The notes below the pieces were generated by a model, which searched no databases, was not told the origin of the DNA, and saw only the letters and a program-made list of their open reading frames with translations. Shown here one piece after another: positions 9,562 through 62,385 of a stretch of DNA of 63,954 bases. The stretch comes from a virus. The DNA lies in the IMG/VR virus record IMGVR_UViG_3300004154_000014, positions 1 through 63,954 of that record; one strand, written 5' to 3'. Numbering within the stretch: the stretch's first letter is position 1; every line of letters starts with the position of its first letter. A program made the translations under genes and the position numbers.

Positions 9562-10164
9562 ATGAACGAGCCATCCGAAACACCGAAACAACAGGAGTTG
9601 TTGGAAGCGCAGACCCAGTGGTTTCACGTCTTCAAGGCGATGATCGAGCAGGGTGACGTGGCCAAGATGGGGCCGCATGCCTTCACGGTCTATGTCGTGA
9701 TCAAGGCCCATACCAATTTCTCGACTGGCCATGCCTTCCCCGGGATTGACGTAATCGCCGAGAAATCCGGGGTCTCCGTCGCGCAGGTAAAGCGCGAACT
9801 GAAAACCCTGGAAGCAGCCGGCTACATCACCAAGGAAAAGCGTGGGCGGTCCAACCATTACATCTTGCGCGAGAAGATCAACGTCACCGACGCACATGGC
9901 CGCCCGCAAGCCGTAGCCACCTGGGACTACCTGCCCAGCAGTGTCCAGCATGCCGTGGCCGACCTGAAAAACGTGCTGGTGTCCGGTGACCTGGCCGGCG
10001 CCAAGGTCGTGCATATCGAGCGCTTGCAGGTGAACGTCACCCACCTGCATGACAACGCGATGAACTTCAACGTGCAGGAGTTCACGGCGGATCTGGAGAA
10101 GCTGCCCAAAGCCATGCGGGACAAGCTGCTGGCCAACTGGAAAAGCCAGCAGGATGACGAGTGA
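9562..10164 (+). CDS. Winged-helix replication-initiator-like protein
   Basis: 200 residues from ATG 9562; an earlier in-frame start at 9544 is possible. Residues about 35-100 form a helix-turn-helix_36 type winged helix (GPHAFTVYVVIKAH, AEKSGVSVAQVKRELKTLEAAGYI, then a basic wing KEKRGRSNHY). Such domains occur in plasmid and prophage replication initiators and in phage regulators. The next 186 bases contain two DnaA boxes and inverted repeats, which favours a Rep or origin-binding role. The alternative is a transcription regulator acting at the late/early boundary. It is convergent with the vRNAP gene. Confidence 0.55.
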   Translation: MNEPSETPKQQELLEAQTQWFHVFKAMIEQGDVAKMGPHAFTVYVVIKAHTNFSTGHAFPGIDVIAEKSGVSVAQVKRELKTLEAAGYITKEKRGRSNHYILREKINVTDAHGRPQAVATWDYLPSSVQHAVADLKNVLVSGDLAGAKVVHIERLQVNVTHLHDNAMNFNVQEFTADLEKLPKAMRDKLLANWKSQQDDE

Positions 10165-16300: not shown

Positions 16301-19300
16301 TCGAGCATGCTGCGCAGGTTGGGGCTCTGCTCCACCATCCGTTGCAGGCCTTCATTGACCTTGGCGATCGTGGCCTCGTAGAGATCGAGGTTGCCGCCCT
16401 GTCCCCGCCAGAGGTTGTAATTGCGGGTACCGTCGGTCAGCGAGTAGAAGCCACCCCGGTTGAGGGTCTGGAAGCTCGCCGCCCCCATGGCGAACAGGCT
16501 GAGCATCGGCCCGTTGGTAACCCCGTCGACCTCGCCCATCATCTGCACGGTGAAGGTCTTCTGCCCGGTGGCCTTGGCCTGGGCATAGTGGACCAGCCCG
16601 ACCAGTGCATCGAAGCTGTGGAAGTTCTCTCCCCCCTTGGCCACGGCCAGGCGAATCCGGTCCTGCTCGGCAGAGGTCAGCTCGCCTTCCCCGTACAGAC
16701 CCTTGCGCAGCGCCGAGACACCGGCGCGGATCACCGGATCGGCCAGCAGGCCCTGGAGCTTTTCCAGCGACTCAAGGTTGGCCATCTTGTCGGTCTTGAT
16801 CCCCAGACCCTCGGCCACCTGTAGCTTGAAGCCCTCCATCGAGGCCTCGTCGTCTACCGTGATCTCGGTCTCCCAGTCCTTCATGTAGAGCATGTGCCGA
16901 TGTACCTTGCTCGTCTGCGGATTGACCAGGTTGGTCTTGAACCCTACCCGCTGCGGCTTCCAGACGCTGGTCTCGAAGTACATGCCGAACCCGATGTCGT
17001 CCTCGCTGTCGCTGGTCAGCTGGTGCACGAAGTCGTCGAAGTTCTCGATCTGGCGCAGCAGGTCGTCGTTCTTGGCGATCGTCGAGGCGCGATGCTCCTT
17101 GTGCAGCTGCTTGCCATCGACACCTACCCCGCCAGCCAGCTCCAGAAGAGTCTGCCGGTCAAGCTTCTGCCAGAGCTTCCAGTTGTCCTGGCGGACGAAG
17201 AAGGGCGTGGACTGGACCTTCTCCAGGGCCATCGCCAGTTCCTGGGGCACCTCCTGGTTGGTCCGCTTGGCGAACTGCTGGGTGAAGGGAATCGGCTCGA
17301 AGCTCGGCTCGATCATCCCGTCCTCGGTGCCGAACAGCTTGCCCAGCACACCCTGGGTACCGACGCTGCTCTTGTAGATCGAGGTGGCCAGCTTGCTGGC
17401 TTCCCTGGTTCCCGGCTCGCGGGCGATGCGCAGGAAGTACACCCGACGCTTGCCGACCTCTTCCCACTCCTTGGCCGGGCGCTGGGCCTGGGCTTCCTTG
17501 GTCAGCGTGAAACGGTCCAGGGTGGCCTGGGATACCTCGCTGCGCTGGACCAGCTTCTGCTGCACCAGCAGGGCCATCACCTGGGCACCCAGCGCCTGCT
17601 CCAGACGGGACTGCTCGTTGACGAAGGCATTGGCCTTGGGTTGCAGACCGAGCGCTTCCATCACCCGCTGGCCGAACGAGAGCACGGCGAGCTTCTCCCG
17701 GCTGCCGACATGCCCCAGAGCAGCAACCATCGCCGGGGTGACGTAGGCATCGTCGTCACGCCCAAGGATGGCGTTGATCTCGTCGGCAGTGTTGGATGGC
17801 TTGCTGGCGTTCTCGGCGACCCAGCTGAATGCCGCATAGCTGATCGCCGTGGCCAGGTTCTCGTCGATCAAACCGTTCTCGTCGAGGAAATCCTGAATCG
17901 GGTCCTTGTAGTTGTGCTCGCGCTGGTTCGCCGGGCGCTGGAACAGGTTGGCCTGGATCTCCTGGCGCCAGTCGCCGGCCAGCTCGCGGAACTTGCCGAT
18001 CACCCCCAGCTGCTTGTCGTCGGGCGCAAAACCGAGGAAGTCCTCGAGGATGGCCCGACCTTCGCGCAGGGCACCGAGGAAATCGCCCACCGAAGCCAGG
18101 GGACGCAAGGTGGCGGCGTTGGCCCTGCCGGCCCGCTGCTCGAACTGCTGGGCGGTACGGTTGCCAGTGCGATAGTCCAGTCCGCTGTCCCGCTGGAACA
18201 GGGAGAGAGTTCCTTTCCTGGTTTCCGCCGGAGCGTCTCCTACCGGCTGCTCCTCCACAGGCGTAGATTCGACCGGAGACTGGTCCAGTACAGCAGCCAT
18301 CTCGCCAGGCACTGCCTCGGGTACCAGCGGCGCAGGGGCTTCTGCGACAGGGGCTTGAACGGATTGCTCAACGGCCGGAGTTGCTACCGGCACCGGCTCA
18401 ATCCCGGCGGCCGGTGCTTGTGTCGCCGGGATCTCCTGGGCGGGAACAGCACCGGCCGCCGGGACAGGCTGGTCCGGTACCGAAGCTGCCGCCGGCGCGA
18501 ACACCACATCGAAGCCGGCCTGCAACTCACGACTGGCTGCCCGCAACGCTTGTGCCTCGGCAACGATCCCGTCGACCAGTGGTCCGCTGCGGGCGCCGAT
18601 CTCCAGTCCCCCGTTGGCACGCAGCTCTTCCCGGCTCAGGGTCAGAGGCGCGATCTCCCACTGGCCGTTGCCGGCCGAGGTCATTTGCAGGCTTTCCCCG
18701 GAACTGCGTGCCTGCCGATAGGCCTGCACCGCCTGGCGGGCCTTGACCGAATGGACCTGGGCGAAAGTGCGCAGACCATCGATCTGAGTGCGTGCTGCTG
18801 CCGGGTCGCCGGACGAGACCGCCTGACGGAAGCCAGACCGGTAATCGGAAATCCCTAGGTAGCCCTGCTTGCGGTTACCCAGCAGCACATCCTGGTTCAC
18901 TCCCTGCAGACCCTTGGCCTGGTTCTCCGCCTGTCGGCTGGACGAGAGCATCCGCAGGTACTGGCGCTGGGGCGTGCTCAGGCCATTGGTTTCGTTGTCG
19001 GCCAGCTCGCTGAGCTGGGTATCGCTGAATGCTCCCGGGCTGCGCATTGCCAGAGTGATGACCTGGTCAGTAGCTTGCTGGCGTGCCTCCGGGGCCACCT
19101 CGCCTTCCGGTGCACTGACCTGCTGCAGCAGCCCATCCATCTGCTCGGAGGAAGGACGCACCAAGGCTTCCATCCGGGCGCGCTGCTCGCGGGCGACGCT
19201 CAGGCTCTTGTCCAGGGCAGCGACTTCCTTGCGCTGCTTGGTGGCATCGCCGGCAGTCTTCCGGTGATCGTCCAGGGTTGCCTTGACCAGGTCGATCGAC

Positions 19301-20901
19301 TCGGTCAGATCCGCCCGGGTCTGCTGGTCCTGCGGATCGGTGTTGGCCAGCATCTCCTGCAAGCCGGTCAACTGAGCCTGACTGGCCTTGACTTCCTCGT
19401 CGCTGAGGGTGCTGTCGAGGACCTTCTGCAGCTGACCGCGTCTGGCTTCCAGATTTCCGATTACGGCGTCTGCCTGCGCCAGGTTGTCGGCTTGCTTGAG
19501 CGGATCGTCCTTGCCGTCACGGGTCGCCTTGAACAACTCGCCCATCGACTGCAGGGCAGTCTTCTGCGCCGTGGTCACTCCCGATTCCTCGGTAGTACGG
19601 ATGCCGATCTTCTCGCCCTGGCGAGCGGCTTCGGATACCGCCTGGGCACCGCTGGTCATCGCCCCGCCGACCAGCCCGCCGATCGCTGCCCCCTGGTAGA
19701 TGTCCATCGCGGTGGCCGGCTTGTTGGTGGCCACGCCTTCGGCATAGGTCTGGAAGCCCTCGGTGGCTGCCTCACTGCCCGTACCCTTGATGGTGGCACC
19801 GACACCGCGGCCTGCCGAAGCCAGCAAGGTATCGGCACCGGCCTTGGTACCCGCCTTGCCAAACATCCCAAGGATCGAGGCATCGCCGACCAGCTCGGCA
19901 GCCCCGGCAGCCAGCGCATGCCCGGCCATCGAGTAGAGCTGATCCTCCGGTGGCAGCGCGCCATCGTTCTGCTTGGCGTAGTTCTCGATCCCCTGGCTGA
20001 AGGTGTCCAGGGCGTAGCTGCCGTTCATCGCAGTCATCGCCAGCTTGCCGGTGGCGCTCACCGCCAGCTGGGGAATGTTCTCGGTCAGGTAGCTGCGCAC
20101 CCCGTCCGGATTGTTGATCCCGGCCTTGATCGCATTGACCATCAGATCGGCTGCTGCCGGCACACCCTCGCGCAGGCCCTGAACCACTTCGCCGTCGCTG
20201 AGCTTGTCCCAGGCCTTGCCCAGGGTCTTGAGGTTTTCCTTGCTGCCCCCGGCAGCCAGATCGCTGGTCAGGTTGTTGCGCGATTCGTTCCAGACCAAAC
20301 CAGAGAGGTCGAAGAAGTTGCGCACCTTGCCCGAGGCTTCGCGCAGGGTCCGGGCATTGTCGAGGACCTCGCGGTTGTTGGTGCCGAGGTTCTGCGGCTG
20401 ATCGAGCAGGGTCTTGTCCTGCGCGGCCTGGGCATTCTCCGCGGCCCGCACGGCATCCATCTGTGGATCGGCGATCGGAGTAATGCCGTGACCGGTGTCC
20501 ATCGGCTGACCGAAGCCCTGCTGCTCGCGGGACCAAGCCTGACGTGCCGCCTCTGGGGTGTTGAATTCCTGGATTGCCGCGACCGCTTCCAGAGGCGCAG
20601 CCACCCCCCAGCCGGCCAGTCGGCTCAGGCCATTGAGCAACTCGGCCGATGCATTGACCGCCGTGCCGGCATAGCCTTCGGGATCGATACCGAAGTCCTG
20701 AACCACCTGACCGAGCAGAGAATCGTTAAGGTTGCGCTGATATTGCGCCTGGGTTGCCTGGAGGGCCTGCACTTTGCGCTGCTGCGCCTCGGCGACCTTC
20801 TGACGTTTGGAAGCGAACTCCCCCCGAGAGGGAGGAGCATAAGGATTGTCCTGATTCGACAGTGCAGCGAAATAGGCGTCTACATCAAATTGATCGGCCA
20901 T
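10351..20901 (-). CDS. Virion RNA polymerase (vRNAP), N4 gp50-like
   Basis: 3,516 residues, the size of N4 gp50 (about 3,500). It is packaged in the capsid and injected with the DNA to transcribe early genes from hairpin promoters. The central third carries T7-type polymerase motifs. Motif A is GEVDGVTNGP with D1459. Motif B is GRKMIKTPLTAMVFGSG with R1556 and K1560. Motif C is LNLHDAGG with D1834. Their spacing resembles the N4 mini-vRNAP (D559, R666/K670, D951). The N-terminal (about 1-950) and C-terminal (about 2,050-3,516) regions are long, helix-rich and linked by Pro/Ala-rich stretches, as expected for injection and packaging domains. It is the last gene of the leftward late block. Long plus-strand open frames opposite it are shadows. 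Confidence 0.95.
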   Translation of the reverse strand: MADQFDVDAYFAALSNQDNPYAPPSRGEFASKRQKVAEAQQRKVQALQATQAQYQRNLNDSLLGQVVQDFGIDPEGYAGTAVNASAELLNGLSRLAGWGVAAPLEAVAAIQEFNTPEAARQAWSREQQGFGQPMDTGHGITPIADPQMDAVRAAENAQAAQDKTLLDQPQNLGTNNREVLDNARTLREASGKVRNFFDLSGLVWNESRNNLTSDLAAGGSKENLKTLGKAWDKLSDGEVVQGLREGVPAAADLMVNAIKAGINNPDGVRSYLTENIPQLAVSATGKLAMTAMNGSYALDTFSQGIENYAKQNDGALPPEDQLYSMAGHALAAGAAELVGDASILGMFGKAGTKAGADTLLASAGRGVGATIKGTGSEAATEGFQTYAEGVATNKPATAMDIYQGAAIGGLVGGAMTSGAQAVSEAARQGEKIGIRTTEESGVTTAQKTALQSMGELFKATRDGKDDPLKQADNLAQADAVIGNLEARRGQLQKVLDSTLSDEEVKASQAQLTGLQEMLANTDPQDQQTRADLTESIDLVKATLDDHRKTAGDATKQRKEVAALDKSLSVAREQRARMEALVRPSSEQMDGLLQQVSAPEGEVAPEARQQATDQVITLAMRSPGAFSDTQLSELADNETNGLSTPQRQYLRMLSSSRQAENQAKGLQGVNQDVLLGNRKQGYLGISDYRSGFRQAVSSGDPAAARTQIDGLRTFAQVHSVKARQAVQAYRQARSSGESLQMTSAGNGQWEIAPLTLSREELRANGGLEIGARSGPLVDGIVAEAQALRAASRELQAGFDVVFAPAAASVPDQPVPAAGAVPAQEIPATQAPAAGIEPVPVATPAVEQSVQAPVAEAPAPLVPEAVPGEMAAVLDQSPVESTPVEEQPVGDAPAETRKGTLSLFQRDSGLDYRTGNRTAQQFEQRAGRANAATLRPLASVGDFLGALREGRAILEDFLGFAPDDKQLGVIGKFRELAGDWRQEIQANLFQRPANQREHNYKDPIQDFLDENGLIDENLATAISYAAFSWVAENASKPSNTADEINAILGRDDDAYVTPAMVAALGHVGSREKLAVLSFGQRVMEALGLQPKANAFVNEQSRLEQALGAQVMALLVQQKLVQRSEVSQATLDRFTLTKEAQAQRPAKEWEEVGKRRVYFLRIAREPGTREASKLATSIYKSSVGTQGVLGKLFGTEDGMIEPSFEPIPFTQQFAKRTNQEVPQELAMALEKVQSTPFFVRQDNWKLWQKLDRQTLLELAGGVGVDGKQLHKEHRASTIAKNDDLLRQIENFDDFVHQLTSDSEDDIGFGMYFETSVWKPQRVGFKTNLVNPQTSKVHRHMLYMKDWETEITVDDEASMEGFKLQVAEGLGIKTDKMANLESLEKLQGLLADPVIRAGVSALRKGLYGEGELTSAEQDRIRLAVAKGGENFHSFDALVGLVHYAQAKATGQKTFTVQMMGEVDGVTNGPMLSLFAMGAASFQTLNRGGFYSLTDGTRNYNLWRGQGGNLDLYEATIAKVNEGLQRMVEQSPNLRSMLEGIYRLTGKPYNDSDGKVTSDGRKMIKTPLTAMVFGSGIDNAISNMADEFVDKFYVNLEKLANGGDPTKLRPLLETVNLLLAQAKHKSAKLDTAMTLEQAMEFSLSPQQVAALRNVFVNTVGVSVADTLRGNFAVFIERRHVFNQTAQAAFGLFDGAYRHYRDKARKGIETVIRDKQPTPIHDITRQQDQDIRNQLSKLAPVLHTAMSRASDNLASGLYLTKRGTSLTDDLAYSIETKFGRELALTGMDGKPSAFSTGRFSGIARGDESPGVSPMILDTHSLDSATAVGVYGKMDVLNLHDAGGTGVGRMQEMARAYNASLYDRLIGYSGPLEIQEVWERSIVGALDLLARDNSPGLRESMAAALQSVMTRMGKEVVEEYVNSGLGPAEFVLQRVTRMAYDAQWAKLDNAANLAIVDQYAFEGGAYEVTEEQRQEARRLQAELSPQVRESMRLQAAELDALLPGRPVEASTELQEDQAVPIQAPASVPQVTAVAAAARAPNVLTEVQARVVEVQQQMLEHNQALETAANEVLAPREAAYVLQAVTEQAREAVNHWGELGTPLFEVDAELEQALAAQPEMPVGRVMGLLKGRLTGANAELLKAVAKVIDRNLTVRYVTPATDPTVSASQGVTGFRGWYEVRNGQGQIFVKGAQFRHAGINAELLLHELVHASIAGVIQRGQDGSSPQVWELVRNLEEIRRKAAAYVNEQGLGNQFGPAVANVDELVAWGMTNQDFQEQVLKRITLNQSTAKNSLITGVNAFIRTLIDLLFAGSGLSPQKVHKTGMALLVKNVSGLYKEASLRPAVGVRTLAMASPSAQAATAALELGTVEIFEALEQYGQTVLNGTRRERLLGLLDGIVTELHGPFGSFKVQRQQNQALTPTDVYLKTLYTGQLPFASASLASGLPFSEAEAYVLEQVEATVKAALEQENGVSSVAYRRLQELFREARQQVKPEDFYAGDWFLASPVAKQTAQGQWDFVFKASAGSKGRSDYLARFVALGLVYEPLQAKMGQLTAEVAVRDWAAMGWFEKLRSLFEDLLDGLGNKLANVSAGERQDIRLGNLVDQLVDIEAKRRYALMQRSQGTLADRFDSLLESASKEVRSHLETLGKTKFFRESSQGIIRVMGKLPGAAAPARLNYLMDGLQRLRDAHFPGRLGVVAGLVNETRGASEATQYAYTLSRVTKQLEQQRKGIIGDVSKLIAESYANEGEDLTREHKTALSKVLLRTDLQALLDGYGIEGIARLINDPQELEKTLAEHIARVRKLGQMGRYYIRQVKDLAYYKATGLVVGPHVMSNTLNIASLAGTPRAGKLSQAEVELAVPALDSLQALLALSYTDMAYRAMAGQVLNSELARGNENGALLTLLTHRELQKQSAQRLFGGSEALRLQGFVPEIFNPNTDLQVAGGQVADQLVASGYVRLEHPVHVDPADPDQALRYVHVLKHGGTQAYQSGVISFTGDKTRGRELHSGVNSFLTEQPSKYRTRLNGRVARQRAQEIAALFAASEAYHPGKSTQRRMLPVVNAQGQVVNYRYMMSEENKDRLLERTDTMDQVLGVMAGNLFDKESGREQNDRTVEALHEQYLKEYAERPEAYVEVSPTSPDSEAREAWIMLPQQTKEKIRAVWGEDLMLVRSDLLDLVFGYRKPSLSSAFDKDPELRSTWENLVVMFGEAVFGEKAAVRIRQGEGIVETLVGEAKDIIVVKSGLTLLGNMQSNLTQLLWEGVSPADVLKHHRIALQGALAYRRDTHELVKLQSMLDAGYLVGGVDELRQRVVELRDALARNPVGKLIEEGLLPSIVEDVSVEDDPYSYRGQALAYLEKKTRNLPGFVKDLGKTLYVAHDTPLYRLLGQGTQLSDFMARYTLYQHLVGRSNQPMAHEQAVETVSDAFINYDIPSHRVIQYLNDKGILMFTKYYIRIQKVLLRMFRENPAKALMLGTLEGYFSSMQSVMDGHVFNQFGNPLNGSVLKYPESLDELVTLKVGMGLFSE

Positions 20902-34293: not shown

Positions 34294-35916
34294 TCACACG
34301 ATATAGGAAGACATTCGGCTTGATTCTTGCATTCCAGTGTCCATCTCCCAAATCCCCGAATTGTCCTTGGACATTTCCAGATCCTGGGTCGGGCGCCAGC
34401 TCTTGAGCGCCGAGAGCATCGAGATACTGTCAATAAAGTCATCATGCTTGCTCTTGAAGCCAGCTGGGGAAGCCAGGGAGAGTTCGCTGTACATCTCCAG
34501 CATCACCGGCAGTTCCTTGAACTCGATCGGGAAGAACACCTTGTGCAGCTTGAACTGTGGGACCATGGTCTGGAACCGCACCAGCTTGTTGGTGTTGGGC
34601 CTGATCCCCGGCATGGCTCCGTTGTTGTCCGAGGCCAGGTTGAAGAAGATGTTGCGGTTCATCATCTCGTTCTGAATCCAGCGCACGAATCCCCCCTGCT
34701 GTCCGCTCACCTCGATCCCCACCTCCAGGGGTCGGTAGGTCGAAACCAGACGGAACAGATCGTCGATGGTCACATCCATCAGTTGGCGCTTGCAGATCCC
34801 GTCCACCCAGAACCAGTCCCCGTTCGCACTGTAGGCCCAGACACTGATCACGCAGAAGTCAGCCGATTGCTTCTCGCTGGTGGCGAAGTCGGTGGTGATG
34901 TACCAGTTGAAGAAGCCCTTGTTCCTGACCACATTGCCATGGCGGTACCAGCCAATCTCATGGTCCTGGATCAACCGATCCTCGGCGGACATGATCCGCA
35001 GCATCAGCTCCTGGTTGAAGGTGTCGACCTTGCCAGCCTTCACTGACTGGTCGTACTTTAGCTTCACGTAGTCGTAGTTGAAGCGGTCGTCCCAGGCTCC
35101 CTTGAATTCCTCCCGCGTGCAGGGGAAGCGCTCGCACACCGGATAGACGTTGACCTTCCAGGCTCCCGACTCGATCGCCTTGTACAGCGGGTCCCTGGCA
35201 TTGAACGGGGTTCCCGACCAAATGATCTTGTTGCGCTTGGGGTGCAGGGCGTAGTCGATCGCCTTGTAGACCGTGGCCTCGATGCTGGCGATCACCGTTT
35301 CCGAACGGGCATCCTCGTCCGAGAGCAGGTCGTCGAGCACTGCCAGCTGGGGTCGCTTGCCCATCTCCTTGGAACCCCGTACCCCGGTCTTGGCCCCGTA
35401 GCCCTTGACGATGAACACGTTGCCATCCCGGTTGCGGAACTCCCAGCGGATGTCGGTGAAGCGGATTTCCGGGATGTAATGCCTGAGAAAATCGCTATTT
35501 TCCCAGCGAAATTCCAGGTTTTTCCGCATGTTTTTCACGCCGTTTTCGATCGAATCTGACACGTAAAGGGCCAGATCCACCTTGCCGAAACCAGGCAGCA
35601 CACCGTAGACACCCAGGTAGAGAAACAGGTATTCCCCCAGCAGGGTGGTCTTGGCAGCCCCCCGGAACACCATGTTGGCGATCCGTGGCGTATCCCCAGC
35701 CACCTGGTCCAGCATCCGGTAGTGGAGTACCGGAGTCTTGTTCTCTTCCCCGGCCTCCCCGTTCACCAGCTTGATGAAGGCCACGAATTCCAGGGCGAAG
35801 TCACTGGGGATGTATCCCGGGTCATCCCCGTAGAACGCTTCGTTCAGCCAATCCTCAACGGACTTCGCAGCCAGCACATCCGCCACTGCCGAAGCCAGAG
35901 GGGAAAGAGTGGGCAT
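34294..35916 (-). CDS. Terminase large subunit, N4 gp68-like
   Basis: Packages DNA into the prohead: an N-terminal ATPase motor and a C-terminal nuclease. 540 residues. A Walker A-like FRGAAKTTLL lies at about 84-93, Walker B is QLAVLDDLLSDED, and the RNase H-fold nuclease starts TTDFATSEKQSADFCVI with further acidic residues in KHDDFIDSISML. The start codon overlaps the stop of the upstream gp69-like gene (ATGA), so the pair is coupled. Confidence 0.92.
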   Translation of the reverse strand: MPTLSPLASAVADVLAAKSVEDWLNEAFYGDDPGYIPSDFALEFVAFIKLVNGEAGEENKTPVLHYRMLDQVAGDTPRIANMVFRGAAKTTLLGEYLFLYLGVYGVLPGFGKVDLALYVSDSIENGVKNMRKNLEFRWENSDFLRHYIPEIRFTDIRWEFRNRDGNVFIVKGYGAKTGVRGSKEMGKRPQLAVLDDLLSDEDARSETVIASIEATVYKAIDYALHPKRNKIIWSGTPFNARDPLYKAIESGAWKVNVYPVCERFPCTREEFKGAWDDRFNYDYVKLKYDQSVKAGKVDTFNQELMLRIMSAEDRLIQDHEIGWYRHGNVVRNKGFFNWYITTDFATSEKQSADFCVISVWAYSANGDWFWVDGICKRQLMDVTIDDLFRLVSTYRPLEVGIEVSGQQGGFVRWIQNEMMNRNIFFNLASDNNGAMPGIRPNTNKLVRFQTMVPQFKLHKVFFPIEFKELPVMLEMYSELSLASPAGFKSKHDDFIDSISMLSALKSWRPTQDLEMSKDNSGIWEMDTGMQESSRMSSYIV

Positions 35917-36605
35917 CACGGCTGGGGCTCCTGGTCGATCACCAGACGCTGCCCGGCTACCTCCTTGGCATCCAGCGCCCCGGCTGCCAGCATCTGCTTC
36001 TGCTGGGCCACCAGATCCATCACTGCCGCTCGCAGGTTGCCGATCGCCCCGTCGTCCTTCACCCCGATGTCCAGTTGCACCTTGCTGGTTTCCGGCATCT
36101 TCAAGTGGGTGAGCAGGGAGTTGGCCGCATCGGTCCTGACCTTCTCGCTCTGGGCCGTCAGCATCAGGTCGGCCTGCACATTGAGTGCCTTCTGGTAGAG
36201 GTCCTGGTTTAACACGTAGTGCGGCGTCAGGGTCTGCTCGAAAATCTGCATCACCAACTTCGACTTGTTGTAGGCGGTGATGTAACTGGCGATGTCCTTG
36301 CTCGCTACCCCACGCATGACGAATGACTGGTAGCGATCGGGGAAGGTCTTGATATACGCATCGGTGTTGGTGCAGCCCATCAACTTGTGGCTGACATACT
36401 TCACCGCATTGATGTAGTCGGGCATCCGGAACTTGCCGTTCTGCATCACCGAGGTGTAGCCAAGCAGATTGTCCCGGTAGTTCTCGAACATGTCCGGATC
36501 ACTGAGCAAGTCGGTGATCTGTTTGATCAGGTCGGGATTGATGGACTTCTTGAGGGAAGGCGGCAGCACTTCCTTGAACTGCTCGATGGTCATGGAAATG
36601 GACAT
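35916..36605 (-). CDS. N4 gp69-like protein, possible small terminase partner
   Basis: 229 residues, first gene of the leftward late block and overlapping terminase. Its position matches N4 gp69. It is helical and moderately charged. The last 60 residues include a conserved-looking KVQLDIGVKDDGAIGNLRAAVMDLV and a Gln-rich helix. In N4 relatives this gene pairs with the large terminase, and a small-subunit or DNA-recognition role is plausible but not shown by motifs. Confidence 0.6.
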   Translation of the reverse strand: MSISMTIEQFKEVLPPSLKKSINPDLIKQITDLLSDPDMFENYRDNLLGYTSVMQNGKFRMPDYINAVKYVSHKLMGCTNTDAYIKTFPDRYQSFVMRGVASKDIASYITAYNKSKLVMQIFEQTLTPHYVLNQDLYQKALNVQADLMLTAQSEKVRTDAANSLLTHLKMPETSKVQLDIGVKDDGAIGNLRAAVMDLVAQQKQMLAAGALDAKEVAGQRLVIDQEPQP

Positions 36606-50427: not shown

Positions 50428-50955
50428 ATGCCCACTCCCGCTCCGGTCCACGATCCAAAGATCAAACAACAACTAAAGGACGCCCTCTACGAGCTGCTCT
50501 ACCAACCGGTGCAGCGGCGCTTCAAGGAGCGTCTGGATGCAATCATCCGGCACAACGTCCAGCTGCTCTCCTCGCCCTTCGAGGCTTTCACCTACAAGGG
50601 GGAGGTCTACAAGATCGATCCCCAGGCGCGGGTACCCCTGCATCTGGATCGGCTGGACTCGAGCCTGCGTCCGATCATGGACAGCTACCTGGCGGAAGTG
50701 GAGAAGCTCAACCGTGAAGAACTTCCCTTCGCGGTGGGTTACATCACCAAAGTCCTCAACGCCTCGAACGACCTCCACGACTACATCAAGCTGCTCCCCG
50801 AATCGTTGCATCCAGTCATCCAGCAGGCCATCGACCGATGCCCCTGCCGGACGGAACACCTGGGCGCCGACGAAGTGAAGCAGTTTCAGGCGGACAATGA
50901 TCGGGAGCTGCAGATCCTCAAGCAGCGCCTGCTCCACAACCTCCTGTTGCCGTGA
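50428..50955 (+). CDS. Hypothetical helical protein, 175 aa
   Basis: ATG 50428 after CCAGGAAAC. It is all-helical, with the pattern RFKERLDAIIRHNVQLL and LHPVIQQAIDRCPCRTEHL, a positively charged first third and an acidic last third. It lies between the zinc-finger and DNA polymerase genes. Not recognised. Confidence 0.65.
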   Translation: MPTPAPVHDPKIKQQLKDALYELLYQPVQRRFKERLDAIIRHNVQLLSSPFEAFTYKGEVYKIDPQARVPLHLDRLDSSLRPIMDSYLAEVEKLNREELPFAVGYITKVLNASNDLHDYIKLLPESLHPVIQQAIDRCPCRTEHLGADEVKQFQADNDRELQILKQRLLHNLLLP

Positions 50956-50974
50956 GGTCTCATCAGGAGCTTCC

Positions 50975-53056
50975 ATGCGTCATCTGTCCTTCAAGGAATC
51001 GGCTACCTACCCGGTCGCCCTGCTGCTCAAACCCAACGCCTTCCTCCAGTCCGAAATCCTCCGCCACTACGGCGAACCCCTGGCAGCCGCCGGCATACCC
51101 CTCGACGATCTGATCGCCATGACCCTGGACAACCCGTCCGAGGGCAAGCTGACCGTGAAGTTCGCCAAGGAGTATGCCGACAAGCTGCTCCAGGCCCTCG
51201 ATACTGTGGACACCCGGCTGCTCTATTGCACCGACGCTACCTACTTCAAGGTGCTCACCAAGCAGACCAAGGCCGAGCCCCACCTGGGCTATGCCCTGCC
51301 CTGTGCCCTGCCTGGCTTCGAACACATGCAGGTGGTACTGGGCATCGGCTACCCGAGCCTGTTCTACAACCCGGCGCTGTCAGCTAAGCTCGACCTCTCG
51401 CTCAAGGCCTTGGTTGGGCAGTACGCTGGCAACTACCGACCACCGGGAGAGGGCATCATCCACCACGCCGAGTACCCCGCGAGCGTGGTGGAGATCAAGG
51501 CGGCACTGGACAAGCTGCACCAGTACCCCTACCTGGCAGCCGACATCGAGGCATTCAGCCTCAACCATTGGCTGGCTGGGATCGGCTCGATATGTTTTAC
51601 GTGGAACACTCATGAAGGCCTGGCCTTTCTGATCGACTACGTACCCCTCGCCGAGCCGGTTTGGGACAACCCCAAGAAGCAAACCACCGGGCAATTCGGC
51701 CAGCAAGTCTTCAACCCCGAAGTGCGTGCCCTGTTGCGTGAATTCTTCGAGACCTACCGGGGCACCTTGCGCTGGCACCGGGCAAGCTTCGACCTCAAGG
51801 TACTGATCTACCAGCTGTGGATGTCCTCGATCGACGATACCGCCGGGCTGCTACGGGGCCTGGAGGTGATGACCCGACACTTCGACGACACCCTGGTGAT
51901 CACCTACCTGGCCACCAACAGTTGTGCTGGCAACGAACTGGGCCTGAAAGCCAATGCCCACGAGTTCGCCGGCAACTGGGCCAACGAGGAGATCAAGGAC
52001 ATCCGGCGGATCAAGCCAGGTGAGCTACTGCAGTACAACCTGGTCGACGGCTTGTCCACCAACTACGTCTTCGACAAGCACTACCCGACCCTGGTCGCCG
52101 ACCAGCAGGAGGAGCTTTACCAGGGCTTCATGAAAGACAGCTTGCGGGTGCTGATCCAGACCATGCTGACCGGGATGCCGGTCAAGCCGGCGCGGGTCCA
52201 GGAGGTCAAGGAGATCCTCGAGACCAAGCGTGACGAGCTGTTCGACAGCATCGTCGCCAACCCCCTGGTCAAGGCGCTCAATCTGGTGTTCCAGAAGAAA
52301 GCCCAGGAGGCCGCCAACGCCAAGCTGAAGGTCAAGCAACACCCACTGGAACATTTCAGCGGCGTGATCTTCAACCCGGGCAGTCCGCAACAGGTTCAGT
52401 ACCTGCTCTACGAGCAGATGGGCCTGCCGGTGCTCGACAAGACCGACAGCGGGCAGCCGTCCACCGGCGGCGATACCCTGGCCAAGCTGATCCACCACAC
52501 CGAGGTGCCAGCCTACAAGGCGGTGATCCAGGCCCTGATCGACCTCTCCGGGGTGGTCAAGATCCTCTCTTCATTCATCCCGGCGCTGGAAGGTGCGGTG
52601 CCGATCCCGGGCACCGAGTACGCCCTGCTGTTCGGTAACTTCAACCTCGGCGGTGCGGTCTCCGGCCGGCTTTCCTCCTCGGACCCCAACCTGCAGAACC
52701 TGCCGGCCAAAGGCCTCTGGGGCAAGCTGATCAAGTCCTGCTTCATCGCTGCCCCGGGCTGGCTGTTCGCCGGATCAGACTTTGCCAGCCTTGAGGACCG
52801 CATCAACGCCCTGTTGACCAAGGACAGAAACAAACTGCGTGTGTACACGGATGGGTTCGACGGCCATTGCCTGCGAGCCTTTGCTTATTTTCCTAGTGAG
52901 TTGCCTGGGATAACCCAGGCCCAAGAAACTGATCGCTGTTTCCGGATCACGATAAAGGGCCAAACTTTTCTATGTAAAAGTGGGGACTTTATTATAACCT
53001 CAGCGGGAGAGCACATTCCAGTAGAGCAGTTTTATGATTCCTATCAAAGAGTATGA
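50975..53056 (+). CDS. DNA polymerase, family A, N-terminal part (gene split)
   Basis: 693 residues carrying the 3'-5' exonuclease (ADIEAF, D190 and E192; HRASFDLK) and the first half of the polymerase domain: SGRLSSSDPNLQN, then motif A GSDFASLEDRI with D602, then DGHCLRAFAYF. It stops before the O-helix, in a stretch (CFRITIKG to YDSYQRV) that I cannot assign with certainty to the polymerase. The rest of the polymerase lies beyond an HNH endonuclease gene. DNA becomes less GC-rich from about 52830, as if a segment around the split was replaced. Start ATG 50975 follows CAGGAG. Its N4 counterpart is gp39. Confidence 0.88.
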   Translation: MRHLSFKESATYPVALLLKPNAFLQSEILRHYGEPLAAAGIPLDDLIAMTLDNPSEGKLTVKFAKEYADKLLQALDTVDTRLLYCTDATYFKVLTKQTKAEPHLGYALPCALPGFEHMQVVLGIGYPSLFYNPALSAKLDLSLKALVGQYAGNYRPPGEGIIHHAEYPASVVEIKAALDKLHQYPYLAADIEAFSLNHWLAGIGSICFTWNTHEGLAFLIDYVPLAEPVWDNPKKQTTGQFGQQVFNPEVRALLREFFETYRGTLRWHRASFDLKVLIYQLWMSSIDDTAGLLRGLEVMTRHFDDTLVITYLATNSCAGNELGLKANAHEFAGNWANEEIKDIRRIKPGELLQYNLVDGLSTNYVFDKHYPTLVADQQEELYQGFMKDSLRVLIQTMLTGMPVKPARVQEVKEILETKRDELFDSIVANPLVKALNLVFQKKAQEAANAKLKVKQHPLEHFSGVIFNPGSPQQVQYLLYEQMGLPVLDKTDSGQPSTGGDTLAKLIHHTEVPAYKAVIQALIDLSGVVKILSSFIPALEGAVPIPGTEYALLFGNFNLGGAVSGRLSSSDPNLQNLPAKGLWGKLIKSCFIAAPGWLFAGSDFASLEDRINALLTKDRNKLRVYTDGFDGHCLRAFAYFPSELPGITQAQETDRCFRITIKGQTFLCKSGDFIITSAGEHIPVEQFYDSYQRV

Positions 53057-53747
53057 AGTGCAATACACCATTGCTGAAAATGGTGATGTCACCCGTAGGG
53101 AAACAGGGCGGATACTCCGCCCTAGTCTCAATAAGCAAACAGGTTATCTGTATGTTGGGTTGTGGAAGCACAACATTGGTAAGACGTTTGCTGTACATCG
53201 GCTGGTTGCTGAGCATTACATTTCCAATCCAGCAAACAAACCTTTCGTCAATCACAAAGACAGTATAAGAACCAATCCGCACAAGGATAATCTGGAATGG
53301 TGTACTCAAGGGGAAAATATACTCCACGGGTATGCCCAAGGATTCATGAGCCAGGAGAATCGCCGGAATTTCAAAGACTTCGAGTTGGATCTGCTTCTTC
53401 AATCCGTCCTTGCTGGAGAGACTATGACAACTCTCGCATCGGCTGCTGACGTGGGCTTAGGGCGACTGACGATCAACTTGCGTAAATATGCGGATACTGC
53501 TGGATTACTTGAAAAATTTCTGGAGGAGTTGTACCGACAAAAGTGTGAAAGGAACGCGCAGGCCAACGTGAATAAACGCAGACCTATTCTGCAGTGGACA
53601 ATCCAAGGCACTCTAGTATCGGAGCATGAAAGTGCAACAGCTGCTGCTAGAACTCTGGGGCGTTCTTCTGCAGGTTCTATATTCAATGCCCTTAATCCCG
53701 GTAAGACTCAGCAGAAGGCTTTTGGTTACTTATGGACATTCAAGTAA
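53034..53747 (+). CDS. HNH homing endonuclease inserted in the DNA polymerase gene
   Basis: 237 residues overlapping the end of the polymerase N-part by 23 bases. Residues 1-55 resemble a NUMOD4-type domain. The HNH core is HRLVAEHYI, VNHKDSIRTNPHKDNLEW (N73-H74, N86). Residues about 180-237 look like a NUMOD1 DNA-binding repeat ending FGYLWTFK. Such enzymes cut homologous alleles lacking the insertion and so spread by homing; I-HmuI of phage SPO1 is a known case in a DNA polymerase gene. AT-rich codon use contrasts sharply with neighbours and marks it as acquired. Confidence 0.88.
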   Translation: MIPIKEYEVQYTIAENGDVTRRETGRILRPSLNKQTGYLYVGLWKHNIGKTFAVHRLVAEHYISNPANKPFVNHKDSIRTNPHKDNLEWCTQGENILHGYAQGFMSQENRRNFKDFELDLLLQSVLAGETMTTLASAADVGLGRLTINLRKYADTAGLLEKFLEELYRQKCERNAQANVNKRRPILQWTIQGTLVSEHESATAAARTLGRSSAGSIFNALNPGKTQQKAFGYLWTFK

Positions 53748-53860
53748 ACGGTGACTTCTCAATAGAAGAAGTCACCACAGATATATTCAACGTCTTTCAA
53801 ATTAACCGGATTAAAAAGGAGTATGGGGCTCTTCGAGATGAATCGAAGAGCCCCACTTGA
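53732..53860 (+). CDS. DNA polymerase internal fragment encoding O-helix start (ends at TGA)
   Basis: A 42-codon frame from ATG 53732 to TGA 53858-53860. Its last 21 residues, FQINRIKKEYGALRDESKSP plus Thr, match the family A segment just before the conserved TFLLTYGG, including the O-helix Arg and Lys (R-x3-K). It is in the same frame as the polymerase N-part but not as the C-part. It is therefore genuine polymerase sequence cut off by a stop at the exact point where the other frame continues. Whether translation starts at this ATG is unknown. Confidence 0.6.
   Translation: MDIQVNGDFSIEEVTTDIFNVFQINRIKKEYGALRDESKSPT
53825..53854 (+). promoter_or_regulatory. Perfect 12-bp hairpin before the polymerase frame break
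   Basis: GGGGCTCTTCGA and its reverse complement flank a 6-base loop. The hairpin ends one base before the ACT codon that precedes the in-frame TGA. It also encodes conserved polymerase residues, so its perfection is notable. It could be a recoding signal, part of a self-splicing RNA, or coincidence. Confidence 0.65.
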
Positions 53861-54537
53861 CTTTCCTCCTTACCTACGGAGGTTCCTGGCGCGGCTTGAT
53901 GGCCAACCTCGGCTGGCCCAAAGAGAAAGCCCTGCGTATTGAGGCCAACTACCACGCGCTGTACGTCGAGTCCGACGAGTGGGTGAAAGCCAAGATCGAC
54001 GAAGCCGCCCGGCTGGGTTACGCCACCTCGGCCTTTGGACTGCGCATCCGGGCACCCTTGTTGACCCAGACCCTGCGGGGGAGGGCCAAGTGTCCCCATG
54101 AGGCGGAAGCCGAAGCCAGGACGCTTGGAAATGCCATCAGTGGCCAGTCCTATGGCCTGCTGACCAACCGGGCCGCCAACGCCTTCATGGCCAAGGTCTG
54201 GGCCTCGCCCTACCGGTTGGACATCCTCCCCGTGGCGTTCATCCACGATGCGATCTACCTGCTGATCCGCAGCCGTCCGGAGATCGTCGAGTGGGTTAAC
54301 CGCGAGCTGATCACCGAGATGCGATGGCAGGAGCTGCCGGAGATCACCCATGACCAGGTCAAGCTGGGCGCCGAACTGGACTTGTTCTATCCCAGCTGGG
54401 CCTACCCGGTCACCCTGCCCAACGGTGCCGATGCCGCCACCATTCTCGAACGCTGCCAGGCCCACCGGGACGAGCTGCACGAGAAGGGTGTTTTGCCTGC
54501 TTTACCCACGAAGAAAACCCCCATGTCTACCCCCTGA
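53857..54537 (+). CDS. DNA polymerase, family A, C-terminal part
   Basis: 226 residues covering the second half of the polymerase domain: TFLLTYGGSW (end of O-helix), FGLRIRAPLL, and motif C VAFIHDAIYLL with the catalytic Asp at codon 54247. The TTG that opens the frame is probably not a real start. The first conserved residues (TFLL) begin at 53860, right after the frame break, so this part must be joined to the upstream fragment by recoding or splicing, or be inactive. GC-rich codon use returns here, as in the N-part. Confidence 0.8.
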   Translation: MTFLLTYGGSWRGLMANLGWPKEKALRIEANYHALYVESDEWVKAKIDEAARLGYATSAFGLRIRAPLLTQTLRGRAKCPHEAEAEARTLGNAISGQSYGLLTNRAANAFMAKVWASPYRLDILPVAFIHDAIYLLIRSRPEIVEWVNRELITEMRWQELPEITHDQVKLGAELDLFYPSWAYPVTLPNGADAATILERCQAHRDELHEKGVLPALPTKKTPMSTP

Positions 54538-56308: not shown

Positions 56309-57205
56309 GTGAAATCGAAACTTGCAATCGGCTTTTTCGTTGCCGGCATGACAGGCGCCGGCCTTGCACTGGCCGCCCCCGATACCCGGGATATGGTCAA
56401 GTCCATCCAGACCCAGGGCTGGTTCAAGACCTGCCCGGGCATCATGGCCAGCCTGAGCGCCATGCCGGAACCGTCCGACCATGCCAGTGATACCTGGCGT
56501 GACTTCGTGCTGCTGCGCGCCGGCTGCCTGACTGAGGAACACCGGGAAGTCGAGGCGATCGCCTTCGTTAAGTCCCGGATGGCAGCCACTGGCCGGCGCG
56601 ATGCGAACCTGCTGAACTTCCTCGGAATCAGCCAACTGCGTGCCGGCAAGGACCAGGAGGCCATCGCCAGCTTCGAGGAAGCCCTGCAATACGGTGTCCA
56701 CGACCTCACCAAGAAGGCGATCTACAGCAAGATGGCCGGGGCCTACACTAAGATCGCCAGCCAAACCGGTAGCCGCGACCCTGAGCTGATGGCCAAAGCC
56801 GAGCAATATGGCCAACTCGCCGTCGACCACAACACCGGTCGTGGCGATCCGAGCATTTCCGCCCAGCTAGCGACCATTAAGGCACTGCGCGAGGACTATG
56901 CCGGGGCGATCCGCCTGTTCGACGATGCCCTGGCCCGCAACACCGCCTACCCCCACTGGAAATCGGAGAACATGCGCAAGGTCATGCAGGCCGAGTTCAC
57001 CATGGGTAAAGGTCAAGCGCTGTACAACCAGGGCGCCAAGACCCAAGGAGCTGCGCTGATGGCCCAGGCTGTCGAGATCGCTCCGACCGACAACCTCAAG
57101 ACCGTGATGAGCGCTTTGCGCGAAGTCACCCTCAACCCAGTCCCGGCCGGGCAACTGCCCGAGATCCTTTTGGTACCCTCTGTTCCTCTCGATGAAGACG
57201 TATAA
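56309..57205 (+). CDS. Exported TPR-like protein, 298 aa
   Basis: GTG start after AAAGGAGAA. Signal peptide MKSKLAIGFFVAGMTGAGLA with predicted cleavage after ALAA. The mature protein is all-helical with TPR-like units: LLNFLGISQLRAGKDQEAIA, FEEALQYG, LKEDYAG-like LREDYAGAIRLFDDALARN. So it is a periplasmic solenoid for protein contacts. An exported TPR protein is unusual for a podovirus; it might alter the envelope of a carrier cell or exclude other phages. That role is inference. Confidence 0.7.
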   Translation: MKSKLAIGFFVAGMTGAGLALAAPDTRDMVKSIQTQGWFKTCPGIMASLSAMPEPSDHASDTWRDFVLLRAGCLTEEHREVEAIAFVKSRMAATGRRDANLLNFLGISQLRAGKDQEAIASFEEALQYGVHDLTKKAIYSKMAGAYTKIASQTGSRDPELMAKAEQYGQLAVDHNTGRGDPSISAQLATIKALREDYAGAIRLFDDALARNTAYPHWKSENMRKVMQAEFTMGKGQALYNQGAKTQGAALMAQAVEIAPTDNLKTVMSALREVTLNPVPAGQLPEILLVPSVPLDEDV

Positions 57206-57398: not shown

Positions 57399-57425
57399 AA
57401 GCCCGCTTGCGCGGGCTTTTTTTTT
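57399..57425 (+). terminator. Intrinsic terminator
   Basis: AAGCCCGC/GCGGGCTT stem with TTGC loop and a long T-run. It ends the unit of two exported proteins. Confidence 0.92.
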
Positions 57426-57859: not shown

Positions 57860-58165
57860 AAGATAATCGAGAAGGTTTAACCATGAATTAATTGAACATG
57901 AACCATGATTCACCAGTACACGAACCATGATCTAGTGAGCCATGACTCTCATGGAATCGTGATTCAGTAGATCATGATCATGTGATTACTGGTTTCATGG
58001 TTCATGTAACAATTGTTCATAGATCAGTAGTTCATGGTTCATGTTTCACGGATTGGCATTCCCTTAAACACGAATTCATGAGCCGGTGAGTCATGGTTAG
58101 GGGTTCAATAACTATGAGTTCATGAGGTAGCATCTCATGGTTCATGATCTCGTACAGGACCACAC
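57860..58165 (+). repeat. Partition-site-like repeat array upstream of parA
   Basis: 306 bases without a gene, filled with CATG-containing repeats. The exact 11-mer CATGAACCATG occurs at 57897-57907, and its reverse complement occurs at 57996-58006, 58033-58043 and 58136-58146. Many partial copies (ACCATGA, GTTCATG, GAGCCATGA) lie between. It runs right up to the parA start. In type Ib partition loci the centromere lies upstream of parA as an array of short repeats bound by the ribbon-helix-helix partner, which also represses the operon. Confidence 0.8.
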
Positions 58166-58810
58166 ATGATCACAATCATCGGGAGCAACAAGGGCGGGGC
58201 AGGGAAGACCACCACGGCCACCAACATCGCTGTTTGGCTAGCCAAACAGGGAAAAGAGGTATGCCTGGTCGATGCTGATCCGCAGCGATCCGCCTGCCAG
58301 TGGTACGCGGAACGTGAGGATGCTGGAATTGAGCCAGCAATCATCCTGATCGAGCGCCGGGACAATATCTCCAGTGCCCTCAAGTCACTCGGCGAAAAAT
58401 ATGCCCACGTCATCGTCGACGTGGCGGGCCGGAATAGCCGTGAGCTGATCACCGGCGCTGCTGCTGCAGATCTGGTCATCGCCCCGCATCAGGCCAGTCA
58501 GTTTGATCTCAACACCATGGCCGAGCTACAGGAGCAGATCATTCGAGTCCGAGACCTTAACCCTGATCTGCGGGTCCTGGCTTACCACACCATGGCCAGC
58601 ACCAACCCTTCCGTTCGTGAAACTGAGCGGAAGGAGTTCCTGACCTTCATAGCCGAGATCCCCGAGATCGAGGTGATCAATGCGGTCGGCTACTACCGCA
58701 AGGTCTATCGGGATGTGATCGTCACAGGGCGGTCGGTCATCGAGTCCGACAACCCAAGCGCCGTCGCTGAAATCGAAGCTCTTTGCCAGGAAGTATTCCC
58801 CCATGGTTAA
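58166..58810 (+). CDS. parA: ParA-type partition ATPase (type Ib)
   Basis: 214 residues, the short ParF/type Ib size with no N-terminal HTH. The deviant Walker A motif NKGGAGKTTT has both signature lysines (K9, K14). A second motif VDADPQ (D36) and the VDVAGRNSRELITGA block follow. Such ATPases form dynamic patterns on the nucleoid and position DNA bound by the partner protein. The gene overlaps its partner by eight bases. It has no evident own ribosome site except AGGAC, fitting autoregulation from the repeat array. Partition genes are normal on plasmids and phage-plasmids, not on N4-type phages. Confidence 0.9.
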   Translation: MITIIGSNKGGAGKTTTATNIAVWLAKQGKEVCLVDADPQRSACQWYAEREDAGIEPAIILIERRDNISSALKSLGEKYAHVIVDVAGRNSRELITGAAAADLVIAPHQASQFDLNTMAELQEQIIRVRDLNPDLRVLAYHTMASTNPSVRETERKEFLTFIAEIPEIEVINAVGYYRKVYRDVIVTGRSVIESDNPSAVAEIEALCQEVFPHG

Positions 58811-59147
58811 ACCACTCAGCGCTCGCGCAAACGCAAAACCTACCCTGGACCAGGACAAGCTGGAGAAGCTGACTACCGAGCTGGTCGACCGGCCTTTCGG
58901 CGGAGAGGTAAGCCAGAAGGAAAATTCCCTGGTCCTCGAGGTCAAGTCCGAGGCCTCGGCTCCAGAACAAAAGACGGAGAAGCCGGCACGGGTCAAGCGC
59001 CGATCGATCACCATCAGCCTTCCCGAATCGCAGATCGTTGCGCTGGAATATGCGGCTGTAGAGAACAAATATGCCGCCGGCAATGAGCCGTCCACCGTCA
59101 GCGCCATCATTTCGAAAGCATTGACCGACGCTGGCTACAAACCATGA
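58803..59147 (+). CDS. ParB/ParG-like centromere-binding protein (ribbon-helix-helix)
   Basis: 114 residues overlapping parA. The N-terminal 60 residues are flexible and charged. Residues 65-112 (KRRSITISLPESQIVALEYA, then STVSAIISKALTDAGY) give the strand and two helices of a ribbon-helix-helix dimer. This is the architecture of ParG-type partners of short ParA proteins: the tail stimulates the ATPase and the fold binds the repeats. Its stop codon lies inside a further exact repeat copy (59143-59153). Family named by architecture and operon position. Confidence 0.75.
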   Translation: MVKPLSARANAKPTLDQDKLEKLTTELVDRPFGGEVSQKENSLVLEVKSEASAPEQKTEKPARVKRRSITISLPESQIVALEYAAVENKYAAGNEPSTVSAIISKALTDAGYKP

Positions 59148-59153
59148 ACCATG
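59143..59153 (+). repeat. Fifth exact CATGAACCATG copy, downstream of parB-like gene
   Basis: It spans the stop codon of the ribbon-helix-helix gene, in the same orientation as the copy at 57897. So the partition operon is bracketed by copies of its presumed binding site. Confidence 0.8.
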
Positions 59154-59224
59154 AATTACGGTATCGTGATCTACCAGAACAGGAACCATTAGAGTTTTTC
59201 TAGTACACCTGGCCGTACCGCCCG

Positions 59225-60641: not shown

Positions 60642-60959
60642 ATGCCCTGGGGTAACAATCCGGATTTTCTCAGCCTACTTGGCGCCTTCCTCATCAGTTT
60701 GATTTCCGGCTTCATTTCGATTGCCCAGCGAATTGCCCGTGGGTATCAGGCGAATATTCTCTGGGTCGCCTCGGAGTTTCTCGCTGCAATTCTCTGCGGT
60801 TATTTGATGTGGGATGTTTATCCGATCGTCGCCCCCACGCTGCCCAATTGGGCCACCTTGCCGGTCATGGTGGCCCTGGCTTCCCATGTTGGTGGTCGCT
60901 CGTTCCAGGTGCTTGAGCTGGCTATTCTCAAGCGGTATCGTACCGATACATCTGTTTAA
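60642..60959 (+). CDS. Holin-like membrane protein, 105 aa
   Basis: Three hydrophobic segments: about residues 9-27, 40-58 and 68-84, with a cytoplasmic charged loop RIARGY. The third ends ALASHVGGRSFQVLE, a feature I associate with LydA-like holins. AAGGAGTCTCC precedes the start. No endolysin is seen next to it, so a lysis role is likely but not proven. Confidence 0.65.
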   Translation: MPWGNNPDFLSLLGAFLISLISGFISIAQRIARGYQANILWVASEFLAAILCGYLMWDVYPIVAPTLPNWATLPVMVALASHVGGRSFQVLELAILKRYRTDTSV

Positions 60960-61689: not shown

Positions 61690-62385
61690 ATGCCCCTCAA
61701 TAGCCTGATCGAGCTGCACAAGTTCAACTTCACCGGTAGCGAAGTCGATACCGACGGCTTCGCCAAGACCCATTGGAATCCGAAGGTTCTGCCCAACGGC
61801 AACCTGGAGGAAACCCCCGAAGGCACCCTGGAACTCTGGGCGCCGACCAAGGGCGCCACCACCCCGGGCTCGAAGAAGACCCGCTCGGAATTCCGTGAAG
61901 TCCAGGAAGGTGTCGAGGACGAATTCAACTGGCAGATTGGCCAGTTCGACCAGTTCCTCAAGGTCACCCTGTTGATCGAGAAGGTCACCCCCGGCGGGCG
62001 GGTGTGTATCGGCCAGGTGCATGTCATCGACAACGACCGTCCACCGATCAAGATCGTGGTGGATGCCAACACCCGCAAGCTGCGGCTGATGTACCGCACC
62101 ACCTTCAATCAGCCGACCGATGTCGGCGAGACCCTGCTGGCCAACCTCGACCTGAGCAAAGCGATCGCCTACTCGCTGCACGTCACCCCTGGCGGAACGG
62201 TCTCGGTCAGCGTCTCCAACAATGGCGTCAGCGCCACCCTTGCCAAGCAGCTCGATGGCAGCTGGGCTTACCGCTGGCTATACTTCAAGGCCGGGATCTA
62301 CAACCAGGACGAGGCCACCGCCGATACCCTGGAAGAGTACGGCACCCATGCCTACCTGACCCGCCTGCTGATTACCCGCACCTGA
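61690..62385 (+). CDS. Alginate lyase, polysaccharide lyase family 7
   Basis: 231 residues, one PL7 jelly-roll domain. All three family signatures are present: R65-SEF-R69, Q109-V-H111, and Y198-FKAGIYNQ at 198-206. H111 and Y204 are the expected catalytic acid/base residues and R65/Q109 bind the uronate. It cleaves alginate by beta-elimination. There is no signal peptide or virion-anchoring domain, so it would be released at lysis, or attached by an unseen partner. CAGGAATC precedes the start. It would help phage spread through alginate-coated cells, which points to an alginate-producing host. Confidence 0.85.
   Translation: MPLNSLIELHKFNFTGSEVDTDGFAKTHWNPKVLPNGNLEETPEGTLELWAPTKGATTPGSKKTRSEFREVQEGVEDEFNWQIGQFDQFLKVTLLIEKVTPGGRVCIGQVHVIDNDRPPIKIVVDANTRKLRLMYRTTFNQPTDVGETLLANLDLSKAIAYSLHVTPGGTVSVSVSNNGVSATLAKQLDGSWAYRWLYFKAGIYNQDEATADTLEEYGTHAYLTRLLITRT

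Follow-up and report, generated by a model that had tools for sequence, protein, structure and literature searches.

ParF/ParG of TP228 and delta/omega of pSM19035, the type Ib partition systems whose mechanism and heptad repeats serve here as the comparison, combine a small ParA with an N-terminal Walker A motif, an overlapping downstream partner gene and repeats spaced at 7 bp. The locus described here shares these features, but its replicon is an N4-type phage, its repeats flank the operon at either end and its partner is too divergent for the family models tried. Related ParA proteins are also carried by phages D6, KS14, phiHAP-1, SSU5 and others, which we take to be plasmid-prophages and not of the N4 type. 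N4-like viruses are used in phage-therapy work, and the N4 genome enters the cell together with its own RNA polymerase.

According to passages of PMC10654107, N4-like viruses were formerly considered strictly lytic, and integrated proviruses and integrases have been reported. A preliminary description of the present DNA had taken N4-type phages to be virulent, which reflects the long-held view and is softened by these published proviruses. The words ‘plasmid’ and ‘partition’ do not occur in the main text of PMC10654107. Likewise, the available portions of PMC12977533 (the tyPPing paper) contain neither ‘N4-like’ nor ‘Schitoviridae’ nor ‘podovir’ and no such type in the table passage, those of PMC7650795 contain neither ‘lysogen’ nor ‘temperate’ nor ‘plasmid’, and those of PMC8224337, PMC13299392 and PMC10232697 report no N4-type plasmid. 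No report of an N4-type phage-plasmid was found in the literature searched, which was represented mostly by its listing entries.

The stretch of DNA analysed (the window) is the IMG/VR record IMGVR_UViG_3300004154_000014 of 63,954 bp, which may be incomplete and shows no exact end overlap. It carries the genes for a giant virion RNA polymerase (vRNAP), RNAP1/2, PolA, primase, the large terminase (TerL), portal and MCP in N4 order, as is characteristic of Schitoviridae. The following features are referred to below.

9547-10164, plus strand: HTH_36 protein, candidate replication initiator, located apart from parA
10351-20901, minus strand: 3516-aa ORF positioned where N4 has its virion RNA polymerase
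34294-35919, minus strand: N4-type large terminase, the marker for finding relatives
50897-54537, plus strand: N4-type DNA polymerase A, split by an HNH-like ORF and bordering the accessory region on its left
57399-57418, plus strand: terminator-like hairpin upstream of the cassette, weak
57882-58165, no strand assigned: upstream repeat array, a candidate centromere/operator, whose CATGA-type units occur in either orientation and form pairs at 7 bp
58166-58810, plus strand: parA, encoding a small ParA ATPase of 214 aa (type Ib-like) with the Walker A motif KGGAGKTTT near the N terminus
58803-59147, plus strand: partner gene, 114 aa, with a predicted C-terminal strand-helix-helix (ribbon-helix-helix, RHH, topology) and an N-terminal extension
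59136-59160, plus strand: downstream repeat block spanning the partner stop codon, with an exact repeat copy at 59143
60642-60959, plus strand: homologue of the holin of N4-type phages, to the right of the cassette

As an N4-type PolA lies to its left and an N4-type holin to its right, the cassette is situated within phage DNA, and the window thus unites phage genes and a plasmid partition cassette on one element, as would be expected of a phage-plasmid. Homologues of the holin were found in 123 phage records; 38 of the 40 listed, with LUZ7 and KPP21 first, are 72-77 kb in size and many are listed among the terminase matches too. The PolA gene of the window is split by the HNH-like ORF (53034-53747, recognised as HNH-like by eye; interruption region 53034-53857, plus strand), and its two halves are adjacent in relatives; the insertion may be an intron, an intein or a homing element. 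The accessory region also encodes a TPR-repeat protein (56318-57205, plus strand).

ParA has the size (∼200-215 aa) and the deviant Walker A motif of type Ib proteins and lacks an N-terminal DNA-binding domain. It matched Pfam AAA_31 (69 bits) and PHROG 164, ‘ParA-like partition protein’ (E 3e-44), and ParF was the top solved structure in a PDB profile search (E 1e-26), although the score against the NCBIfam model ParA_partition (134 bits) fell under the 180-bit cut-off, which counts against a partition reading. The parA and partner ORFs overlap by 8 bp. These ORFs, the motif, the overlap and the ParF match bear out the type Ib ParA of 214 residues with an overlapping partner that had been proposed from the sequence. 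No Pfam, PHROG or NCBIfam model matched the partner, and Foldseek returned nothing at E≤0.001 with its single-sequence structural model. However, four of the 20 plasmid homologues listed are annotated RHH/CopG, the C terminus of that model (mean pLDDT 61) adopts a strand-helix-helix arrangement, and the sub-threshold matches of the partner profile in the PDB (E 0.05-0.27) were EndoAI, MetJ and CopG, which we take to be RHH proteins. Based on its homologues and the predicted topology, the partner is thus predicted to be RHH-like. Between 57300 and 59420, three terminator-like hairpins were detected versus 1.5 in shuffled sequences, for which reason the hairpin listed above is rated weak; no sigma-70-like promoter was found in the same region (1.3 expected), and Rfam gave no matches.

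Exact copies of CATGAACCATG are located at 57897 (+), 57996 (−), 58033 (−), 58136 (−) and 59143 (+) and at no other site in the whole window, which reproduces all five positions, upstream of parA and across the partner stop, given in the preliminary description; the same pattern read backwards, used as a control, does not occur in the window. When up to one mismatch was allowed, seven matches were obtained versus 1.07 expected, a number reached in none of 100 shuffles, and one of the seven lies far from the cassette at 21569. Nine of the ten window copies of AACCATGA are located inside the array. Every exact copy of CATGAACCATG contains two CATGA units 7 bp apart, and this 11-mer is thus the conspicuous portion of an array made up of 7-bp units in pairs. 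At lag 7 the upstream array showed seven matching 5-mers (mononucleotide-shuffle mean 0.35, largest value 5 in 2000 shuffles), and the counts at lags 15 and 22 were higher still (12 and 17, respectively), indicating that the units are set in a 15/22-bp super-spacing. On the partner-stop side, 17 heptamers recur that are also present upstream, versus 2.1 in shuffles. The upstream array is A+T-rich, with 40.5% G+C within a genome of 60% G+C, and it adjoins the operon as in type Ib loci.

A search with ParA against 72,556 plasmid records yielded at least 5000 matching records, the closest being from an Azotobacter plasmid (73.5% identity), followed by Pseudomonas plasmids at about 70%. For the partner, matches were obtained in 96 plasmid records; among the 20 listed, 12 overlap an annotated AAA-family ATPase gene. 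Among phages, the best ParA match was that of the N4-type Pantoea phage G19 (59%), and the partner had no match at E≤1; scanning IMG/VR with ParA gave a single distant locus (24%), and with the partner none. The searches proposed in the preliminary description thus place the nearest kin among plasmid cassettes. The window also encodes an alginate lyase (61690-62385, plus strand; Pfam Alginate_lyase2, 117 bits), which points to a host coated with alginate, for instance Pseudomonas or Azotobacter, fitting the ParA kinship.

The Azotobacter chroococcum HR1 plasmid NZ_CP066313 and the Pseudomonas plasmid pA3J1 share with the window a ParA (70-73% identity), a homologous partner and 7-bp repeats located ahead of parA as well as at the stop of the partner, but lack an N4-type terminase; their repeat unit is of the ATGAATT/CAATTCA type, whereas that of the window is ATGAACC, which resembles ATGAATT. 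Repeats were compared in ten plasmid cassettes and that of phage D6, the end of the unannotated pPTMP25-1 partner being estimated. The ten plasmid cassettes are not all independent, as the ParAs of Z8 and p4 are identical. All 11 showed a repeat excess (p≤0.007). Lag 7 was the strongest among lags 4-15 in nine of the ten plasmid cassettes (tied with lag 14 in one of these), lag 14 leading in pPt0893-29, and heptamers common to both sides of the operon were significant (p≤0.02) in nine, the exception being p11K1 (p=0.18). The D6 cassette showed no match at lag 7 and no significant heptamer sharing across the operon. With a small ParA, an RHH-like partner, repeats on both sides and plasmid cassettes as nearest kin, the claim of a complete partition cassette is well supported. 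In a phylogenetic tree, read in its Pseudomonas/Erwinia part only because of very long Acinetobacter, Larsenimonas and Polaromonas branches, the window ParA paired with the Azotobacter ParA (support 85/84, not strong), and the ParAs of G19 and of a Pantoea eucrina contig described below grouped with an Erwinia plasmid ParA (support 100/99).

N4-type elements were sought by their terminase and thus independently of ParA. In PLSDB two matches were obtained, one of them N4-type, namely the Acinetobacter baumannii plasmid pRBH2-3, a circular molecule of 75,126 bp encoding a ParA, a small partner, an HTH_36 protein and a resolvase; the other, a Campylobacter plasmid, was set aside at 22% identity. 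When compared with vB_IME_Ab2712, a member of Schitoviridae from hospital sewage with an unverified record, 72,779 of the 75,126 bp of pRBH2-3 were aligned (97%) at a mean identity of 99.2%, and the ParA, partner and HTH_36 proteins were 100% identical. Judged from this alignment, the two are one element, recorded once as a plasmid and once as a phage, and short of culture work the pair is the strongest evidence that an N4-type phage can also be a plasmid; no paper was found under either name. Like the window, the pair is N4-type, carries parA and a small partner gene in the slot between PolA and the exonuclease, and has an HTH_36 homologue. Unlike in the window, the HTH_36 gene adjoins the cassette, a resolvase is present, and the ParA is distant from that of the window (24% in the alignment, 35% over 122 residues). 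The pRBH2-3 cassette had no repeat excess (p=0.35, 0 at lag 7). Another pRBH2-3 gene, annotated ‘chromosome partitioning protein ParB’, was identified by homology as the portal gene and rejected.

A GTDB scan with two short peptide patterns, and hence non-exhaustive, revealed eight N4-type loci. Two of them, from the named strains Larsenimonas suaedae DSM 22428 (74,886 bp) and Pantoea eucrina Russ (73,671 bp), stand alone as contigs, and both carry ParA on the N4-type contig itself. Their ends overlap exactly by 123 and 100 bp, respectively, as circles or collapsed terminal repeats would give. The Larsenimonas ParA occupies the same PolA-exonuclease slot as those of pRBH2-3 and the window, where the slot wraps the contig ends, and 0.2 kb from its parA lies a gene for a Rep_3 plasmid initiator (C6:49626-50384; Rep3_N 130 bits, Rep3_C 68 bits); the repeats of this cassette are weak (p=0.03-0.04, 0 at lag 7). 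The P. eucrina contig and phage G19 resemble the window in being N4-type and in having a ParA of its family, an RHH-like partner and flanking repeats, but their cassette is located between RNAP2 and an AAA ATPase gene on the other strand. Bracketing repeats are strong in P. eucrina (23 shared heptamers), with lag 14 leading (5 versus 3 at lag 7); in G19 the upstream repeats were significant (p=0.003, 1 at lag 7) and those after the partner stop were seen by eye. G19 also has annotated AbrB-like, PemK/MazF-like toxin and UmuD-like genes (PV483189, 64254-65188), which are plasmid-maintenance-like.

Two further GTDB loci reside on longer contigs, of 914 kb in Xenophilus and 233 kb in Alteromonas. 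In Xenophilus, integrases at C6:75144 and C6:118042 flank the N4 genes (76.9-115.9 kb; region C6:75144-118590), and within 50-150 kb no primase, exonuclease or vRNAP was found, so that these genes are perhaps a prophage remnant; no ParA matched within the N4 stretch, and two weak hits (32-33 bits) lie outside it at 121590 and 566986 of C6. In Alteromonas, where the element was seen within a 21.5-kb locus, an integrase (C65:94698) lies 28 kb from the terminase and no ParA matched on C65. The remaining four loci are metagenome bins, two of which were searched and had no ParA on the N4-type contig, the other two (13.4 and 7.5 kb) lying outside this search; the lack of ParA on a 74-kb N4-type contig of a Clostridia bin counts against a plasmid state.

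Thus, all three stand-alone ∼75-kb N4-type replicons from isolates (pRBH2-3, P. eucrina and Larsenimonas) carry ParA. In IMG/VR, 531 N4-type loci were confirmed, and the best 80, being the most query-like and not a random sample, were kept. Among these, a ParA profile matched none of the 30 contigs of at least 19 kb and none of the 12 above 65 kb, the 50 shorter contigs lying outside the search. The same profile recovered the Larsenimonas ParA, which was not among its rows, at E 4e-27; the IMG/VR run itself contained no known positive. By hand calculation on these small numbers, a split of three of three versus none of 12 would arise by chance once in 455. The ParA-less IMGVR_UViG_2522572179_000012 (55.9 kb), whose identifier is presumably of the isolate-genome kind, may stem from an isolate and counts against the association. 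When TerL was searched for across the orders of P. eucrina (295 genomes) and Larsenimonas (390 genomes), only the two starting genomes matched, indicating that N4-type replicons of this sort are rare, and E. coli genomes gave no match to G19 TerL DNA. Photobacterium phage TEMp-D1, a temperate lead by its name, has the holin in common and was dropped as its record is unannotated.

The window had no match to PF00589 or PF00239, the integrase signature expected of an integrated temperate phage, and no HTH_3 repressor, resolvase or Rep_3 match; a tyrosine integrase was likewise absent from G19, pRBH2-3, vB_IME_Ab2712 and the Larsenimonas and P. eucrina contigs. The HTH_36 protein had three plasmid matches, in pRBH2-3 (43%), Polaromonas pA29BJ2 (35%) and Clostridioides difficile (26%), and matched four phage records, vB_IME_Ab2712 first. 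In pRBH2-3/vB_IME_Ab2712 and in pA29BJ2, the gene for its homologue comes after parA and a small gene. Its best PHROG is a family without known function (2e-35), followed by replication-initiation families (best 9.5e-11), and none of ten IMG/VR N4-type controls reached the HTH_36 cut-off. These weak PHROG matches and the gene neighbourhood make it a candidate replication initiator, which might serve the plasmid state.

Taken together, we consider it likely, from sequence comparisons, that a plasmid-derived type Ib cassette maintains the N4-type window phage at low copy number, as a plasmid, while its hosts divide. By analogy with type Ib systems, the RHH-like partner would bind the repeats that flank the operon at either end, thereby assembling a partition complex on the phage DNA as well as repressing the operon. 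ATP-bound ParA would coat the nucleoid, its ATPase would be stimulated by the N-terminal extension of the partner, and the partition complex would travel along the ParA gradient so that each daughter receives a copy. The phage-plasmid state implied by the preliminary description is supported by those N4-type relatives that bear ParA and are on record as a plasmid or as stand-alone isolate contigs, and for the window phage itself we infer it. The DNA of pRBH2-3, Larsenimonas and P. eucrina could also be lytic-phage carry-over in the cultures.

ParA and its partner might instead have been repurposed for lytic growth with no plasmid state, for example in placing or concentrating phage DNA or in separating the host nucleoid from the phage genome. 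The lack of an HTH_3 repressor or Rep_3 match in the window would fit, as would the deposition of two ParA-bearing N4-type records, G19 and vB_IME_Ab2712, as free phages, on account of which ParA is no proof of a plasmid state for a given isolate. However, a lytic role should be commoner: 479 INPHARED records matched the terminase (60 listed), whereas the 27 and 21 phage records matched by two ParA queries each included one that is N4-type by name, G19 and vB_IME_Ab2712. As the ParAs of the window and G19 moreover group with different plasmids, and as the assemblies of isolates contain ParA-bearing N4-type DNA in the form of a plasmid or of contigs standing alone, we hold such repurposing to be unlikely. 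Capture of a plasmid cassette by recent recombination, as an unused passenger, appears quite improbable: the cassette, flanked by repeats of its own, does look like a plasmid block, and the G+C content of parA is 57.5% versus 60.3% for the window, but neither frame is broken, the array is intact, and N4-type elements differ in the ParA cassettes that they hold, two of these lying in the slot used by the window, which argues for selection. A chimeric assembly joining N4-type phage and plasmid DNA, conceivable for an IMG/VR record with no mapped core N4 gene between the cassette and the right contig end, is most improbable given the holin homologue 1.5 kb to the right (identities of 52% with LUZ7, 57% with Larsenimonas and 34% with pRBH2-3) and the ParA in the same slot of the Larsenimonas contig and pRBH2-3.

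Beyond low-copy maintenance of the window phage, part of the N4-type family probably lives as plasmids between infections, since related phages carrying ParA turn up as free-standing DNA in bacteria. At least three sequence-distinct ParA types occur in different genomes, namely a Pseudomonas/Erwinia-plasmid type, an Acinetobacter type and a Larsenimonas type accompanied by Rep_3, and we think there is a good chance that N4-type phages became phage-plasmids repeatedly and form an unrecognised, integrase-less temperate class of Schitoviridae. If the plasmid-prophage state is true, some N4-like viruses can persist silently and carry genes, which raises the question of how a genome that enters with its own RNA polymerase stays quiet. 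The isolate-borne relatives make the plasmid-prophage question directly testable.
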